From the NCBI GenBank assembly GCA_944363575.1, contig CALVUJ010000012.1, positions 1 through 33,182 of the forward strand: a stretch of 33,182 bases of DNA, read 5' to 3'. The number at the start of each line of letters is the position of its first letter. The stretch's first letter is position 1. The position numbers and the translations under genes were made by a program. The notes under the pieces were generated by a model that saw nothing but the letters and a program-made list of their open reading frames with translations, was not told the origin of the DNA and ran no database searches. Of this stretch, positions 22,381 through 29,271 are shown piece after piece. The DNA is from an uncultured Bacilli bacterium (GTDB lineage: Bacteria > Bacillota_I > Bacilli_A > RFN20 > DUOF01).

Positions 22381-22418
22381 ATTAGATAATTAAAGTTAAA
22401 ATGGAAATGGTGATAAGG

Positions 22419-23282
22419 GTGAAAGAGTCAAGTTTAATTTTAGAAGGTGGAGGCATGAGAGGGATGTATACGAGTGGAGTTTTGGATGCCTTCATGGATA
22501 AGGGATTATATTTTAAAAATATATATGCAGTTAGTGCAGGGTGTTATAATGCTTTGTCTTATTTATCTAGGCAAAGGGGGAGATCTTATCGGGTTAACAC
22601 TACTTTTTTAAATGATAAACGTTATATTAATTTTAGAAGTATGATGACTAGAGGTAGTGCGGTAAATACCGATTTTATTTTTGAAGAAGTATTTAAGAAT
22701 TTAGATCCTTTTGATTATGAGGAGTTTAAAAAGAATTGTCATTATTTTTATGCAGTTAGCACTAATTGTGATACGGGAGAGGCTCATTATGCGTTAGTTA
22801 AAGATTTAGATAAAGATGTAGAGTATGTTAAGGCTAGTGCAGCATTACCTTTATTTACAAAGTTAGTAAAGGTAGATGGTTTAGTGCTTACTGATGGTGG
22901 GGTAGCAGATTCTATCCCCGTTAGTAGAGCTTTTGAAGATGGTTTTGTTAATAATGTGGTTATTCTTACTAGGCCAAAAGGTTTTTTACTTGGCGAAAAT
23001 AAGTTTATGAAACTTAATAAAATTAAATATAAAAAGTATCCTAAGTTAGTTGAGGCGATGGGTAATAGGCATTTTAAGTATAATGATACTTTATCTTTAA
23101 TTAATGAGTTGGAAGAAGAAGGTAAAGTTATTGTTATAAGGCCTAAAGAGAGTTTAAATATTGCTAATTTAGAGAAAAATAAAGAGAGAATAAAAGCAAT
23201 TTATGAGATGGGTTATAAAGATGGGTTAGAGTATGTTGATAAAGTAAAAGAGTTTATTAAAGGTAATGAAGATGTTAAGTAA
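22419..23282 (+). CDS. Patatin-like phospholipase (YjjU/RssA-type)
   Basis: Predicted serine lipid acyl hydrolase. It has 287 residues from GTG 22419. LEGGGMRGMYTSGVLDAF provides the oxyanion loop, AVSAGCYN the nucleophile Ser (first Gly of GxSxG is Ala) and TDGGVADSIPV the Asp of the catalytic dyad. The SRQRGRSYRVN segment after the nucleophile is typical of the YjjU group. GTG 22419 follows GGTGAT with 5 bases spacing; an ATG at 22401 has no ribosome site. It overlaps the phosphodiesterase gene, with a lipid kinase next, so it probably feeds phospholipid turnover. No signal peptide, so cytoplasmic. Confidence 0.88.
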   Translation: MKESSLILEGGGMRGMYTSGVLDAFMDKGLYFKNIYAVSAGCYNALSYLSRQRGRSYRVNTTFLNDKRYINFRSMMTRGSAVNTDFIFEEVFKNLDPFDYEEFKKNCHYFYAVSTNCDTGEAHYALVKDLDKDVEYVKASAALPLFTKLVKVDGLVLTDGGVADSIPVSRAFEDGFVNNVVILTRPKGFLLGENKFMKLNKIKYKKYPKLVEAMGNRHFKYNDTLSLINELEEEGKVIVIRPKESLNIANLEKNKERIKAIYEMGYKDGLEYVDKVKEFIKGNEDVK

Positions 23283-24021
23283 GAGAGTGAAAGAGTTTAG
23301 TGATAGGGCTTATTGGTTAAAAGAAGGGGTTTTGTATCATCGTGGTAAATATAGTGATAGTGTTAAAGAGAATACGATGGAGGCTTTTTCTTTAGCAATT
23401 AATGATAAATTAGGTATAGAGTTAGATGTTAGGTTAAGTAAGGATAATGAAGTGGTGGTTATTCATGATGGTAATTTGAAGAGAGTTTATGGGGTAGATA
23501 AGGATGTTAGTGAGTGTAGTTTTAAAGAACTTAGTGATTATAGTGATGGAAAGATTCCTTTATTAAAAGATGTGTTAGATTTAGTAGATGATAGGGTAGG
23601 GTTAATGATTGAAATTAAGTCTAATAAGGTAGGTGTGTTAGAGGAAAAGACATATGAGATATTAAAAAATTATAGAGGGAGATATGTTGTTGTTAGTTTT
23701 AATCCTTTTAGTTTAAAGTATTTTAGAAAGAGGGATAGTTCAATTATAAGGGGGCAATTATCTTATAGTTATGATGGTAGTGGATATCCTTGGTTGGTTA
23801 GGGTGTGTTTAAGGAGATTATGGTTTAATTTTATTAGTAAGCCTCATTTTATTAGTTATGGGATTGATAATTGTAATATTAATTTTTTGAAAAAAGTTAG
23901 GAAGAAAGGGTATTTTATAATAGGGTGGACATATAAAAATAAAAAAAATGATGAAATTTTAAAGCAAATATACGATAATATGATAGTAGAGAAGATAGAA
24001 ATGAGGAGTTTTAAAGAATGA
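23272..24021 (+). CDS. Glycerophosphodiester phosphodiesterase
   Basis: Cuts glycerophosphodiesters to glycerol 3-phosphate and an alcohol. It has 249 residues. YHRG with KENTMEAF, then GIELDVRLSKDNEVVVIHDG and LKRVYG reproduce the GDPD active-site set (His, Arg, Glu, Asp, His). IEIKSNK carries the later metal-binding Glu. No signal peptide. ATG 23272 is 8 bases after AAAGG; ATG 23266 is too close. It overlaps the patatin gene by 11 bases and the kinase by 4 (ATGA), giving translational coupling. Confidence 0.92.
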   Translation: MLSKRVKEFSDRAYWLKEGVLYHRGKYSDSVKENTMEAFSLAINDKLGIELDVRLSKDNEVVVIHDGNLKRVYGVDKDVSECSFKELSDYSDGKIPLLKDVLDLVDDRVGLMIEIKSNKVGVLEEKTYEILKNYRGRYVVVSFNPFSLKYFRKRDSSIIRGQLSYSYDGSGYPWLVRVCLRRLWFNFISKPHFISYGIDNCNINFLKKVRKKGYFIIGWTYKNKKNDEILKQIYDNMIVEKIEMRSFKE

Positions 24022-24905
24022 AATGTTTATTTATTTATAATCCTATAAGTGGGAAAAATAAAAAACTTATGAAAAAGTTAGATTATATAAAAGAGAAGTT
24101 AGAGGAGAAGTATGAGGTAGTGGATATTGTGCCTACAGAGTATGCAGGGCATGCGATTAAGTTAGCTAGTGAAGCATGTGGGAAGTACGATAGTTTGCTT
24201 TTTTCTGGAGGAGATGGCACTTTTAGTGAAGTAATTAAGGGTATTGGAGAAAATAAGATGGCTCCGACATTAGGCTTTATTCCTTCAGGTACCGTTAGTG
24301 ATATGGCGAACAATTATAAAATACCTAGAAATATTAAGAGGGCTTTAGATATTTGTTTGAAAGGGAATAAGACTAGAATTGATGTGTGTAAGATTAATGA
24401 TAGTTATTTTGCTTATGCAGGGGCTTTTGGGACATATACCGATTCAACTTTTAAGACTAGTGTAAAGATGAAAAAGAAATTTGGGAGAATGGCTTATTTT
24501 TTACAAGGTGCAAAAGAGGCTTTTAAAGTAAATGTTAGTGATTTAAAAATAAGTGTTGGTAAGAAGAATTTTACGCAAGAGTCATCATTAGTTCTTCTTT
24601 TAAATACGAAGTCTGTTGGAGGGTTTTCTAGGTTTAATTATAAAAATAAATTAGGTGATGGTAGGTTTGATGTTGTTATAGTTAAGAAGCCTCAAATAAA
24701 GACTCCGATTGGGATTTGGAAGTTGTTTGTAGGTGGGGTTCATAAAGTTAGTGATAATGATAATTATATGGTTTTTAGTACGGATAATATTGTGATAGAT
24801 GCTGGGAAGGAAGTAAGTTGGAATTTAGATGGTGATGAATATCATGCTTCTAAAATAGATGTTAAATGTTTAAAAAGAAGATTGAATCTTTTTGTTAAAG
24901 ATTAA
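24018..24905 (+). CDS. Lipid kinase, diacylglycerol kinase (DgkB/YegS) family
   Basis: Phosphorylates diacylglycerol or a related lipid with ATP. It has 295 residues, the usual length. IYNPISGKNKK is the N-terminal signature, LLFSGGDGTFSEV the nucleotide-binding GGDGT motif and LGFIPSGTVSDMANN the following loop. The C-terminal VSWNLDGDEY matches the family's conserved D-G-E. In Firmicutes DgkB returns diacylglycerol, released by lipoteichoic acid synthesis, to phosphatidic acid. It overlaps the phosphodiesterase by ATGA. Confidence 0.92.
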   Translation: MKCLFIYNPISGKNKKLMKKLDYIKEKLEEKYEVVDIVPTEYAGHAIKLASEACGKYDSLLFSGGDGTFSEVIKGIGENKMAPTLGFIPSGTVSDMANNYKIPRNIKRALDICLKGNKTRIDVCKINDSYFAYAGAFGTYTDSTFKTSVKMKKKFGRMAYFLQGAKEAFKVNVSDLKISVGKKNFTQESSLVLLLNTKSVGGFSRFNYKNKLGDGRFDVVIVKKPQIKTPIGIWKLFVGGVHKVSDNDNYMVFSTDNIVIDAGKEVSWNLDGDEYHASKIDVKCLKRRLNLFVKD

Positions 24906-24919: not shown

Positions 24920-24942
24920 GGTTTATTATTGAGGTGATCATG

Positions 24943-26415
24943 ATGGATGAGATGGATATTTTGTTTAGTAAAGTATACGATCTAGCTAAAAAATACATCA
25001 CGAAGTATGATGACCTTTTTCTTATGCAGAAGGCATATTGGTTTGCTAAAGAGAAGCATGCGGGTTCTTTTAGGGTAGATGGGAGTCCATATTTAAAGCA
25101 TGTTATTGAAACGGCAGAAATTATTGTTTCTTTACATGCAGGGCCTCATACGATAATAGCAGGGATTTTACATGATGTTGTAGAAGATGTTAAAGATGTT
25201 AATGAAGAAATGATTATAGCACTTTTTGGTAAAGATATAGCAGAGCTTGTTATGTCCGTTACGAAGGTTAGTGAAGATGAGAGTGCTTCTTATAGCGATA
25301 GCAAAAACAAAACAATACAAAAAGTTTTTCATGCGATGAGTAAAGATGTTAGGACAATTATTATTAAGTTAGCAGATAGGTTAAATAATATGCGTACTTT
25401 AAATGTGATGCCTAAAGAGAAACAAATAAGGATTTCTAATCAAACGTTAGAGTTATATGCTCCAGTTGCTAGATATATAGGTTTAAATAAGATAGCACAG
25501 GAACTAGAAGAGTTATGTTTATTATATTTGAATGAAGAGATGTATTATGAGATTAAATGCTATGTTATGGATCATAATAGTAGGTATAAAGAGAGTATTA
25601 ATTCCATGTGTAAAAATATTGAGCAGGCTTTATTAGCTATTGGGATTAATAATAAAATATTTGTTTCTAATAAAGAGATTTATAAGATATATAAGTTTAT
25701 AAAAGATGGTAAGCATACTTTAGATGAAATAGATGATTTAGATGTGATTCATGTTTTAGTGGAGAAAAATATGGATTGTTATGTTGCATTAGGGGTAGTG
25801 CATTCTATTTATATGCCTTTAATAGGTAGACTTAAAGATTATATTACTTCTCCTAAATTTAATTTATATCAAGCTATTCATACGATTGTTATTAATCCAG
25901 CAGGTAATCCTAGTAAGATTGCTATTTCGACTAAAGTAATGGATGATTTATTTAATTTTGGGGTTGCTAGTAAGTGGCAGTATGATGAGAATAAGGGTTA
26001 TGATAAAGATAAAGAGCAAGAGGATATTCGTAAGCATTTGAATATTATTAGGGAGTTAGATAGGATTAATAGTGATGATAAGGTTAATCCTTCGGAGTAT
26101 GTTAAGTTATTGCAAGAAGATATTTTTAATCATAATCAATATATTTATGTTTATAATACGATAGGAGAAGTTATTGTGTTGCCTGTTGGTTCAACAGTGT
26201 TAGATTTTGCTTTTAAGTTATCTGATAAAATAGGTAAGGGGTTAAAGGAAGCATATATTAATGGGATTCCAGCGAGTTTTGATACAAAATTGAAGAATGG
26301 GACAATAGTAGCGGTAAAAAGTGATAATCGTTGTTATGTGAAAGAAGAGTGGTTAGATTGGGTTGTTAGTAATTATGCTAAAATTAAGATTAAAGAAATA
26401 TTAGATAATAAGTAA
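24943..26415 (+). CDS. Rel/SpoT-like protein: hydrolase domain intact, synthetase domain degenerate, no C-terminal regulatory half
   Basis: It has 490 residues against about 730 for Rel. The HD hydrolase domain is preserved: Arg in SFRVDG, His53, His77-Asp78 and Glu81-Asp82 (ILHDVVED), and KLADRLNNMRTL. The next domain aligns with the ppGpp synthetase (CYVALGVVHSIYMPLIGRLKDY, YQAIHT), but the ExQIRT block is KIAIST at residues 325-330, so the catalytic Glu is Lys. The usual AIRVIV is VIHVLV, and the Arg of RPKHIYSIY is Ser. A TGS domain (about 400-460) and a short tail follow; the helical, zinc-finger and ACT parts are missing. I infer a ppGpp-degrading enzyme. ATG 24943 is 6 bases after GAGGTG. 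The gene is not known to be relA or spoT proper. Confidence 0.85.
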   Translation: MDEMDILFSKVYDLAKKYITKYDDLFLMQKAYWFAKEKHAGSFRVDGSPYLKHVIETAEIIVSLHAGPHTIIAGILHDVVEDVKDVNEEMIIALFGKDIAELVMSVTKVSEDESASYSDSKNKTIQKVFHAMSKDVRTIIIKLADRLNNMRTLNVMPKEKQIRISNQTLELYAPVARYIGLNKIAQELEELCLLYLNEEMYYEIKCYVMDHNSRYKESINSMCKNIEQALLAIGINNKIFVSNKEIYKIYKFIKDGKHTLDEIDDLDVIHVLVEKNMDCYVALGVVHSIYMPLIGRLKDYITSPKFNLYQAIHTIVINPAGNPSKIAISTKVMDDLFNFGVASKWQYDENKGYDKDKEQEDIRKHLNIIRELDRINSDDKVNPSEYVKLLQEDIFNHNQYIYVYNTIGEVIVLPVGSTVLDFAFKLSDKIGKGLKEAYINGIPASFDTKLKNGTIVAVKSDNRCYVKEEWLDWVVSNYAKIKIKEILDNK

Positions 26416-26445: not shown

Positions 26446-27549
26446 ATGAGTTTAAAAGCGGGTATTATAGGGCTTCCTAATGTGGGAAAGTCAACGTTAT
26501 TTAATGCGATTACGTCTTCAAATGTAGAGGCTAGTAATTATCCTTTTGCAACGATTAGTCCTAATACAGGAGTTGTTGAAGTAAAAGATATAAGAATAGA
26601 TAAAATGATTCCTCTTTATAATCCTAGAAGAGTGGTGAGGGCTACTTTTGAGTTTTGTGATATAGCAGGGTTAGTTAAGGGGGCTAGTAAAGGTGAAGGG
26701 CTAGGTAACCAGTTTTTAGCTAATATTAGGGAAGTTGATGCTTTGTGTCATGTTGTTAGATGTTTTGAGAGTAGTGAGATTGTACATGTAGAGGGTAGTG
26801 TTAATGCTTTAAGAGATGTGGAAATAATTAATTTGGAATTAGTTTTTGCTGATTTAGAAGTGATGGAGAAAAGGTTAGCTAAGATTGAGAAGAAAGCTCA
26901 AACTAGTAAAGATAAAGATGCGGTGTTTGAAGTTAATCTTTTACATAAGTTTATTAAGGTTTTGAGTGAGGGGAAAAGAGCTAGTGTTTTAGAACTTAGT
27001 GAAGAAGAGAGATTACTTTCTAAGAGTTTTAATCTTTTAACTTTAAAGCCTATGATTTATGTGGCTAATATTAGTGAAGCAGAGATTAAAGATCCTTTAA
27101 GTAATAAAAATTATCGGGAGTTAAGTAAATTAGCGGAAAGTGAGAATACTATTGTTATACCGATAAGTGCTCAGATAGAGGCTGATTTGGCTAATTTGGA
27201 AGAAGATGAAAAGAAAATGTTTTTAGAAGAGTTAGGGTTAGAGTGTTCAGGGTTAGAGAAGTTAACTTTGGCTACGTATTCTTTATTAGGGCTTGAGACT
27301 TTCTTTACTGCAGGGAGTGATGAGCTTAGGGCTTGGACTTTTACTAAAGGGATGAAGGCTAGTGAATGTGCAGGTATTATTCATAGTGATTTTGAAAGAG
27401 GTTTTATTAAGGCAGAAGTTTATACTTATGAGGATATTATGGAGTATAAGAGTGAAGTTAAAGTTAAGGAAAATGGGAAGTTAAGAATTGAGGGTAAAGA
27501 GTATTTAGTTAAAGATGGAGATATTATGTATTTTAGGTTTAATGTATAG
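26446..27549 (+). CDS. ychF: Ribosome-binding ATPase YchF
   Basis: Obg-family P-loop protein that prefers ATP and binds ribosomes. It has 367 residues. IIGLPNVGKSTLFNAIT is the P-loop, followed by DIAGLVKGASKGEGLGNQFL (G3). The specificity loop reads ANISEAE rather than NKxD, the YchF hallmark for ATP. The C-terminal TGS domain shows FTAGSDELRAWTFTKG and AEVYTYEDIMEY. ATG 26446 follows GGGGTG; the in-frame GTG at 26437 lies inside that site. TATAAT at 26423-26428 may mark a promoter. Confidence 0.96.
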   Translation: MSLKAGIIGLPNVGKSTLFNAITSSNVEASNYPFATISPNTGVVEVKDIRIDKMIPLYNPRRVVRATFEFCDIAGLVKGASKGEGLGNQFLANIREVDALCHVVRCFESSEIVHVEGSVNALRDVEIINLELVFADLEVMEKRLAKIEKKAQTSKDKDAVFEVNLLHKFIKVLSEGKRASVLELSEEERLLSKSFNLLTLKPMIYVANISEAEIKDPLSNKNYRELSKLAESENTIVIPISAQIEADLANLEEDEKKMFLEELGLECSGLEKLTLATYSLLGLETFFTAGSDELRAWTFTKGMKASECAGIIHSDFERGFIKAEVYTYEDIMEYKSEVKVKENGKLRIEGKEYLVKDGDIMYFRFNV

Positions 27550-27558
27550 GAGAATAGT

Positions 27559-28446
27559 ATGAGAAAGAAGCAAAAGATAGGGCTTGTTTTAGGTGGTGGA
27601 GGAGGTAAAGGAGCTTATCAAATAGGGGTTTGGAAGGCTCTTAAGGAGTATAAGATTGATAAGTATATTACCTATATAAGTGCAACTTCGATAGGTTCTT
27701 TGAACACGCTTCTTTTTTTAACGGGTGATTTGGATAGGGCAATGAATATTTGGAGTAATGTTTCTAAAGATATTGCTTTAACGAAGATGAGTTTGAAGAG
27801 TGTTATTAGTAAGAAAAGTCTTTTTTCTAGAGAAGGGTTTATTAAGCTTGCTAATGATAATGTGGATTTTGAGAAGGTTAGTAATTCTTTTGTTAAGTCT
27901 TTTGTAGTGGCTACTCCTGTTAGTAAGAAGATGGAGAATGCTCCTTCTGTTTTTTGTTTGAATGGTAGAAGTAAGGAAGAGATTTTAAATATTGTGTTGG
28001 CTAGTTCGGCGATTCCTGTTGTTTTTGAGCCAGTAAATATTAATGGTGTTTTGTATCGTGATGGGTATATGGTGGATAATAATCCTGTTAGGGTTTTGAA
28101 GGAGAAGGGGTGTAAGTTAATCTTTGTGGTTCCTTTAAAGGAATATTCGATAGCATATGAGTGTGCGGATGATAAGACGACTATTATTGATTTTGTGTCT
28201 AGTTATAATGATTATGGGATAATTGATGGGACATTGGATTTTGTTGGTGATAGGGCGAAGATGCGAATGGAGCATGGTTATCAAGTAGCGAAACAATTAA
28301 TAGATGAAGTTATTAGTGAAGGAGTTATTGCGATAACTTTAAAGCAAAAGATTAGGGCTTTTTTTCTTAAAAGAAAGAAAAGAAAAGAGAATAAAAAATA
28401 CTATTATAGTTTAAGTAAAGAGGTTATAAGACATAAACCCCAGTAA
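27559..28446 (+). CDS. Patatin-like phospholipase, second copy
   Basis: It has 295 residues. VLGGGGGKGAYQIGVWKAL is the oxyanion loop, SATSIGSLNT contains the nucleophile Ser (again with Ala in place of the first Gly), and YRDGYMVDNNPV has the dyad Asp, with Tyr where DGG is usual. The C-terminal 35 residues are strongly basic. There is no signal peptide. It shares little with the patatin at 22419 beyond these motifs, so it is from a different subgroup. It starts 9 bases after ychF, behind AGGAG. Confidence 0.86.
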   Translation: MRKKQKIGLVLGGGGGKGAYQIGVWKALKEYKIDKYITYISATSIGSLNTLLFLTGDLDRAMNIWSNVSKDIALTKMSLKSVISKKSLFSREGFIKLANDNVDFEKVSNSFVKSFVVATPVSKKMENAPSVFCLNGRSKEEILNIVLASSAIPVVFEPVNINGVLYRDGYMVDNNPVRVLKEKGCKLIFVVPLKEYSIAYECADDKTTIIDFVSSYNDYGIIDGTLDFVGDRAKMRMEHGYQVAKQLIDEVISEGVIAITLKQKIRAFFLKRKKRKENKKYYYSLSKEVIRHKPQ

Positions 28447-28467
28447 TATAATTTGAAGGGGAGTTTT

Positions 28468-29271
28468 ATGGATAAACTTATAGAATTATTTAAATATATA
28501 ATATTAGCGATAGTGCAAGGGGTAGGCGAGATATTACCTATTTCTTCAAGTGGTCATTTAGTGCTTGTTAGTAAGTTATTGGGGATTGATAGTGAGGGTG
28601 TTGGGTTAGAGTTACTTTTACATTTAGCTTCTTTATTAGCACTTTTTCTTTTTTATAGAAAGGTTCTTTTTAGTTTAATAAAGGGCTTTTTTTTATATTC
28701 TTTTAAAAAGAAAAAAGAATATATTAAAGATTTTAAATATGTGATGGGAATGATGATTAGTTTAGTTCCTACTTGTTTATGTGGCTTTTTTTTGAATGAT
28801 TATTTAGATTATTTTATTAGTTATCCTATAATGGTAGGGGTTTTTTTAATATTTAATGGGGTTAATCTTTATTTAGTTAGAAAGAGTGAAAATTATAAGA
28901 GTGTGGAAGATCTTCGTGTGGGTTCTTTTTTTAAGATAGGTTTAGGGCAATGTTTAGGGTTAATTCCAGGTGTTTCTAGAAGTGGGTCTACTTTAGCGAT
29001 GTGTTATAGGGAGAAATTAAATAAGGAAGATAGTTCAAAGTTTACTTTTTTAATGCTTTTTCCTTTGGTAATTGGTTCAATTTTGCTTAATTTAGGAGAG
29101 TTTAGTTTTGAGGGGAATGTAACTTTATTAATGATTAGTTTTATTTTAACTTTTTTGATTACGTATGGTAGTTTGTTTTTTTTGAGTAAGATTATTAATA
29201 GTAATAAGTTGCATTATTTTGCTTATTATTGTTTTATTGTTGGTATAATGGTAATGGTGATTAGTTTATGA
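28468..29271 (+). CDS. uppP: Undecaprenyl-diphosphatase
   Basis: Integral membrane enzyme that dephosphorylates undecaprenyl pyrophosphate, recycling the carrier for wall polymers; overproduction gives bacitracin resistance. It has 267 residues, the usual length, with about seven or eight membrane segments. VQGVGEILPISSSGHLVL and LIPGVSRSGSTLAM are the two active-site signatures. ATG 28468 follows GGGGAG; TTG 28453 is in frame but lies upstream of that site. Its stop overlaps the start of the phosphoesterase (ATGA). Confidence 0.96.
   Translation: MDKLIELFKYIILAIVQGVGEILPISSSGHLVLVSKLLGIDSEGVGLELLLHLASLLALFLFYRKVLFSLIKGFFLYSFKKKKEYIKDFKYVMGMMISLVPTCLCGFFLNDYLDYFISYPIMVGVFLIFNGVNLYLVRKSENYKSVEDLRVGSFFKIGLGQCLGLIPGVSRSGSTLAMCYREKLNKEDSSKFTFLMLFPLVIGSILLNLGEFSFEGNVTLLMISFILTFLITYGSLFFLSKIINSNKLHYFAYYCFIVGIMVMVISL

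Follow-up and report, generated by a model that had tools for sequence, protein, structure and literature searches.

Rel locus and gene structure

The window analysed here is the entire 33,182-bp contig C12 of the genome (G000) of an uncultured, gut-type member of the Bacilli. On its forward strand lies an open reading frame (ATG at 24943, end at 26415) specifying a 490-amino acid Rel-type protein, which we call the short Rel. Other in-frame starts near this ATG are GTG 24934 and ATG 24940. The gene, its critical residues and its immediate neighbours are as follows:

24018..24905, + strand: diacylglycerol-kinase/YegS-type lipid kinase, adjoining the short Rel upstream, likewise in the related genome G001
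24931..24938, + strand: Shine-Dalgarno-like GAGGTGAT, 5' of ATG 24943 (sequence reading)
24943..26415, + strand: short Rel paralogue, 490 aa, with HD hydrolase, pseudo-synthetase, core and TGS, without HEL, ZFD and RRM
25072..25101, + strand: R44, Y50 and H53, the guanine-stacking Arg, catalytic Tyr and metal His of the hydrolase (roles as in Acinetobacter SpoT, PMC9974481)
25171..25188, + strand: H77-D78 and E81-D82, hydrolase HDxxED (residue reading)
25366..25398, + strand: hydrolase-site K142, D145, R146, N149 and T152 (residue reading)
25618..25998, + strand: pseudo-synthetase domain, residues 226-352 (Pfam RelA_SpoT)
25750..25752, + strand: His270, replacing the conserved synthetase Arg (DLxAxR / AxR Arg; residue reading)
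25915..25932, + strand: KIAIST, residues 325-330, replacing E[IV]QIRT, with the catalytic Glu, the Gln and the Arg lost (residue reading)
26140..26322, + strand: TGS domain, approximately residues 400-460 (Pfam)
26221..26223, + strand: Ser427, replacing the tRNA-CCA-recognising TGS His (residue reading)
26446..27549, + strand: YchF GTPase, adjoining the short Rel downstream, likewise in G001

Around these genes (22401-24905 and 27559-29271) are several with lipid-related functions, namely two patatins, a glycerophosphodiesterase, the lipid kinase and BacA.

Pfam recognizes HD_4 [1.7e-33], RelA_SpoT [2e-20] and TGS [2.3e-8] in the short Rel, all above their cut-offs and in the domain order of a long RSH. 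The NCBIfam model TIGR00691 scored 419.4, below its cut-off of 499.2, and aligned to only 451 of its 687 positions. As the initial annotation had it, the protein stops after TGS: the frame ends 30 residues past this domain, with no helical, zinc-finger/conserved-Cys or RRM/ACT domain following it. A small alarmone hydrolase (SAH), which consists of the HD domain alone, is ruled out by the pseudo-synthetase and TGS domains. With phmmer, residue 3 of the short Rel aligns with position 4 of the 1vj7 chain. The closest solved structures, by sequence and fold, include the Rel proteins of Bacillus and Staphylococcus and the SpoT of Acinetobacter, and a confident AlphaFold2 model (mean pLDDT 88.1) had Rel and SpoT as its top Foldseek matches.

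Active sites of the short Rel

The hydrolase residues named in the initial annotation (H53, H77-D78 and E81-D82) are present at the positions given there, and seven further residues of the site are intact. The synthetase, which had been described as dead, does read KIAIST in place of ExQIRT, with key arginines replaced by His270 and by Ser329, the latter at the position of the QIRT Arg. The RelA_SpoT domain scores 73.6 bits, against 150.1 bits for the other Rel of the same genome, which is described below. The hydrolase site of the short Rel is thus that of a bifunctional Rel[HS], but KIAIST, His270 and Ser329 exclude it from that class. These residues agree with a protein that would hydrolyze (p)ppGpp without synthesizing it, and lend good support to the earlier proposal of a dedicated ppGpp hydrolase with a dead synthetase.

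A full-length Rel in the same genome

The genome to which the window belongs (1.13 Mb in 26 contigs, 90.9% complete, contamination 0.09%) gave two matches above the cut-off in a RelA_SpoT search: the short Rel and a 722-amino acid Rel on contig C24, the long Rel. The initial annotation had suggested a RelP/RelQ-type partner, and had recommended a search of the genome for another long Rel. It is the latter that was found. No RelP/RelQ-type small synthetase was detected with the RelA_SpoT domain in this 90.9% complete assembly, and the putative synthetase is the second, full-length Rel. A RelA_SpoT match on contig C10 lies below the cut-off and belongs to a 538-amino acid protein of another kind.

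The synthetase motifs of the long Rel are intact (GRPK, GRFKDYI, YQSLHT and EIQIRT), and its hydrolase site is destroyed. In the HD domain a stretch that is IIVALLHDTVEDC in a bifunctional relative has become LLACVLSKTDN, and R44, Y50, H53, H77, D78, E81, D82, D145 and N149 are all missing. Its TGS His is retained, and so are the conserved Cys and His residues in the zinc-finger region. Full length, a dead HD, an intact SYNTH, the TGS His and the conserved Cys together make this protein RelA[hS]-like. A structure model of it reached a pTM of 0.52 and plays no part in the argument here. Since the long Rel has kept its synthetase and erased its hydrolase, and the short Rel has done the opposite, the two proteins are mirror images, and what began as one odd gene becomes a reciprocal pair.

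In both G000 and G001 the long Rel lies in the order secDF-recJ-rel-tlyA-recN, the neighbours being what we take, from reading their sequences, to be these genes; recJ-rel-tlyA is the ancestral locus. The two loci of our genome differ in composition. At third codon positions the window genes between 24943 and 27549 have G at 0.21-0.24 and C at 0.01-0.02, and the genes around the long Rel (L210) have G at 0.05-0.07 and C at 0.05-0.09; G001 shows the same contrast more weakly. Contig C1 of G000 also specifies a 281-amino acid HD_4 protein (L053, 1030-1875, - strand) with an HDVVED motif, a possible second alarmone hydrolase. G001 carries an unlike HD protein of 174 amino acids (L055, 1450-1974), and G002, a third genome of the family, has none.

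Conservation within the family and order

Four genomes of the family that includes our own (f1) were examined, G000 to G003. G001 is the Bacilli assembly RGIG6178, from sheep rectum, and belongs to another genus of f1. Orthologues of the short Rel occur in two other f1 genera, with 56-57% identity overall and 52-60% in HD, and the same residues are kept and lost in each: all 12 residues of the hydrolase site are present in the three genera, the catalytic synthetase Glu is Lys and the motif reads KIAIxT. Because the same pattern recurs in two other genera it is not due to chance. The G001 short Rel (KIAIAT, hydrolase intact) is 56% identical to ours, and its long Rel, also with an erased hydrolase, is 64% identical to that of G000. 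In the long Rels of both genomes nearly all 12 hydrolase-site residues are gone and every synthetase motif is present. Both genomes share the neighbourhoods lipid kinase - short Rel - ychF and secDF - recJ - long Rel - tlyA. The TGS His is replaced by Ser in our short Rel and by Asp in that of G001.

G002 has the short Rel; its long Rel was not found, the contig ending right after recJ, where rel would start. The gene that follows the short Rel in G002 (L057, 1908-2321) overlaps it by 14 bases and looks to be of NUDIX type; some NUDIX enzymes act on (p)ppGpp. In G003 (86% complete) neither Rel was matched. Locus L043 of G001 (contig C5) specifies a 431-amino acid protein of another kind; it has an EIQIHT motif and matches RelA_SpoT weakly, but was not accepted as a Rel.

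In the order's 94 remaining genomes the matches were lone long Rels, apart from a weak match to HD only in G050. Twenty-six long Rels were inspected at each position of the two sites, 24 of them from the order and two taken from named neighbouring records, and in every one both sites were intact. As a measure of wear we took, for each domain, the median identity to the 24 bifunctional Rels of the order. Between families of the order the bifunctional Rels themselves give 54% in HD, 67% in SYNTH and 69% in TGS. The f1 long copies give 22-26%, 63-67% and 62%, that is, a normal SYNTH, a nearly normal TGS and a collapsed HD. For the f1 short copies the values are 43-48%, 35-40% and 32-45%; these have diverged along their whole length, with the hydrolase site unchanged.

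A second family with short Rels

When 247 genomes from across the class were sampled, more than one strong match turned up only in our own genome and in family f17 (16 of about 30 f17 genomes in the sample); in a larger set of 117 f17 genomes, roughly half have at least two matches. The hydrolase site is kept in all 55 f17 short copies that were read, one of them with D82E, and the catalytic synthetase Glu is lost in each of the 54 that are readable there, being replaced by Gln and not by Lys as in f1. In one short Rel gene (L190, G382:C8) an in-frame TAG cuts the reading frame after some 201 codons, leaving a 201-amino acid fragment. Three genomes (G273, G332 and G333; L081/L090, L148/L149 and L151/L152) carry two short hydrolase-only Rels in addition to a long one. 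Over all the copies read, in f17 and outside it, the TGS His is kept by all 133 long ones and lost from 24 of 57 short ones (Fisher p = 4e-15, kinship ignored).

The long copies of f17 have an intact synthetase in 105 of 105 cases, and the hydrolase site is damaged in 57, usually with HD changed to HE and ED lost. Such damage is found in 33 of 54 long copies that are accompanied by a short one and in 24 of 51 that are not (p = 0.17, kinship ignored), counts which do not support the idea that loss of the long-copy hydrolase follows gain of the short copy. The family nonetheless contains apparent intermediates: short with intact bifunctional Rel, short with hydrolase-dead long Rel, and long Rel alone. 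Fourteen of the 24 genomes with a hydrolase-damaged long Rel and no short Rel show no other HD_4 protein; L204, L198, L203, L193 and L196 are examples of such damaged long Rels standing without a short one. A synthetase without a visible hydrolase could be due to a hydrolase that is still partly active, to gaps in the assemblies or to a hydrolase from a different family. According to a rule stated in PMC3153485, wherever a synthetase is retained a hydrolase is present too, and this rule would be broken if the hydrolase-less f17 genomes are real.

In phylogenetic trees the f1 short and f1 long copies fall with the Rels of the order, and the f17 short and f17 long copies form clades of their own. 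In the tree without proteobacterial rows our short Rel groups with the Rels of its own Bacilli order with support of 99/94, which speaks against descent from a proteobacterial SpoT; the long Rel of G000 groups there too. A single origin of the f1 and f17 short Rels was rejected (p-AU 0.004). Uniting f1 short and f1 long in one clade, as a duplication inside f1 would have it, gave a p-AU of 0.12, which neither rejects nor establishes such a duplication; the branches of the short copies are long, and their exact places inside the order are therefore unsure. On this phylogeny f17, which is distant from f1, evolved its putative hydrolase-only short Rel separately, and the best reading is that the split would be independent of that in Proteobacteria.

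Proposed function of the pair

We propose, with a probability of roughly 0.8, that a Rel was duplicated and split in these uncultured Bacilli, the short copy being a dedicated hydrolase and the long copy its matching synthetase, a RelA/SpoT-like pair. The short Rel would be an Mn-dependent (p)ppGpp 3'-pyrophosphohydrolase, its synthetase domain serving as a catalytically dead scaffold, so that HD, pseudo-SYNTH, core and TGS would make up a minimal hydrolase module. Having no ribosome- and tRNA-sensing C-terminal half, it would break down the alarmone independently of any signal from starved ribosomes. The long Rel would be the ribosome-linked, RelA-like synthetase still governed by them, and both proteins would act on one shared alarmone pool.

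The hydrolase-only SpoT of Acinetobacter offers a structural precedent. In that enzyme the inactive synthetase serves as a scaffold, the HD site is clamped in its active shape by TGS and the core, and the TGS His position is Ser407; deletion of TGS-HEL costs about 42-fold in activity, and loss of RRM and ZFD fivefold (PMC9974481). As the latter loss weakens the Acinetobacter enzyme, truncation after TGS may likewise lower the hydrolase activity of the short Rel.

The short Rel need not be the sole hydrolase, as the 281-amino acid HD_4 protein on contig C1, whose HDxxED looks intact, could also hydrolyze (p)ppGpp. We consider it unlikely that the alarmone is hydrolyzed mainly by this protein, with the short Rel as a minor or regulatory factor. 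An f17 genome, G406 (which appears to be the same as G377), does combine a hydrolase-dead long Rel with two such HD proteins and no short Rel, but within f1 it is the short Rel that is found in three genera, the HD protein of G001 being a different one and G002 having none. Quite unlikely, too, is a short Rel that acts mainly on another nucleotide, such as (p)ppApp or, as in animal Mesh1, NADPH. The HD_4 superfamily includes enzymes with other substrates, and the PDB matches of the short Rel include a (p)ppApp hydrolase and Mesh1-NADPH; against this, the short Rel descends from a (p)ppGpp enzyme, it has kept Arg44, which stacks on guanine, along with the ppGpp site mapped in Acinetobacter SpoT, and its partner synthetase no longer has a hydrolase of its own.

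A functionless paralogue in decay might be suspected from the loss of one active site and of the C-terminal third, but we regard this as very improbable when the reading frame is uninterrupted and preceded by a ribosome-binding site, and when 12 of 12 hydrolase residues are invariant across three genera whose short Rels are only 56-57% identical (52-60% in HD). That the pair is a binning artefact, with one gene from another organism, is hardly credible in spite of the 26 contigs and the third-position G of 0.21 versus 0.07 at the two loci, given that G001, which was assembled independently and belongs to another genus, carries both genes in the same two neighbourhoods with a composition difference in the same direction, that the two copies cluster with the order's Rels, and that contamination is 0.09%.

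A broader proposition must be put more tentatively and is, in our estimate, possible rather than probable: that the Rel of Bacilli has repeatedly (at least two origins) been split, yielding a synthetase that is coupled to the ribosome and a minimal hydrolase that does not depend on it, with some 12 f17 genomes apparently retaining a synthetase without a canonical hydrolase.

Comparison with known systems

A division of labour between RelA and SpoT is known from the Beta- and Gammaproteobacteria, E. coli included; the plant RSHs are a separate case. Our search of openly licensed papers found no report of a reciprocal Rel pair in Bacilli.

The short Rel resembles the SpoT[Hs] of the Moraxellaceae (A. 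baumannii, PMC9974481), which has an active HD, a dead synthetase kept as a pseudo-domain and no TGS His, and is the partner of a synthetase-only long RSH; in outline the two would operate alike. The latter SpoT is gammaproteobacterial and of full length, with HEL, ZFD and RRM, whereas the short Rel stops after TGS and descends from a Bacilli Rel. The long partner is like RelA[hS] of the Beta- and Gammaproteobacteria in being of full length with an intact synthetase and a dead HD, but it lies inside the Rel tree of its order and at the recJ-rel locus. Within the Bacilli a parallel is RshC of Bacillus (PMC3153485), a second-copy long RSH cut within the helical domain right after TGS. Compared by its description, RshC differs in being a Rel[HS] that is confined to six Bacillus strains, with no reciprocal loss reported. 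Duplicated long RSHs have likewise become specialised in RshB of the Bacteroidetes, which has a diverged HD, and in the plant RSH1 (hydrolase) and CRSH (synthetase) (PMC3153485, PMC5633626); these belong to other lineages and have other domain layouts, and RshB stands beside a Rel[HS].

A reciprocal split in Bacilli, together with an independent short hydrolase in f17, would make the RelA/SpoT division a repeatable outcome that can be compared across lineages. The short Rels moreover suggest a natural minimal hydrolase module, which bears upon how TGS keeps the HD site active.
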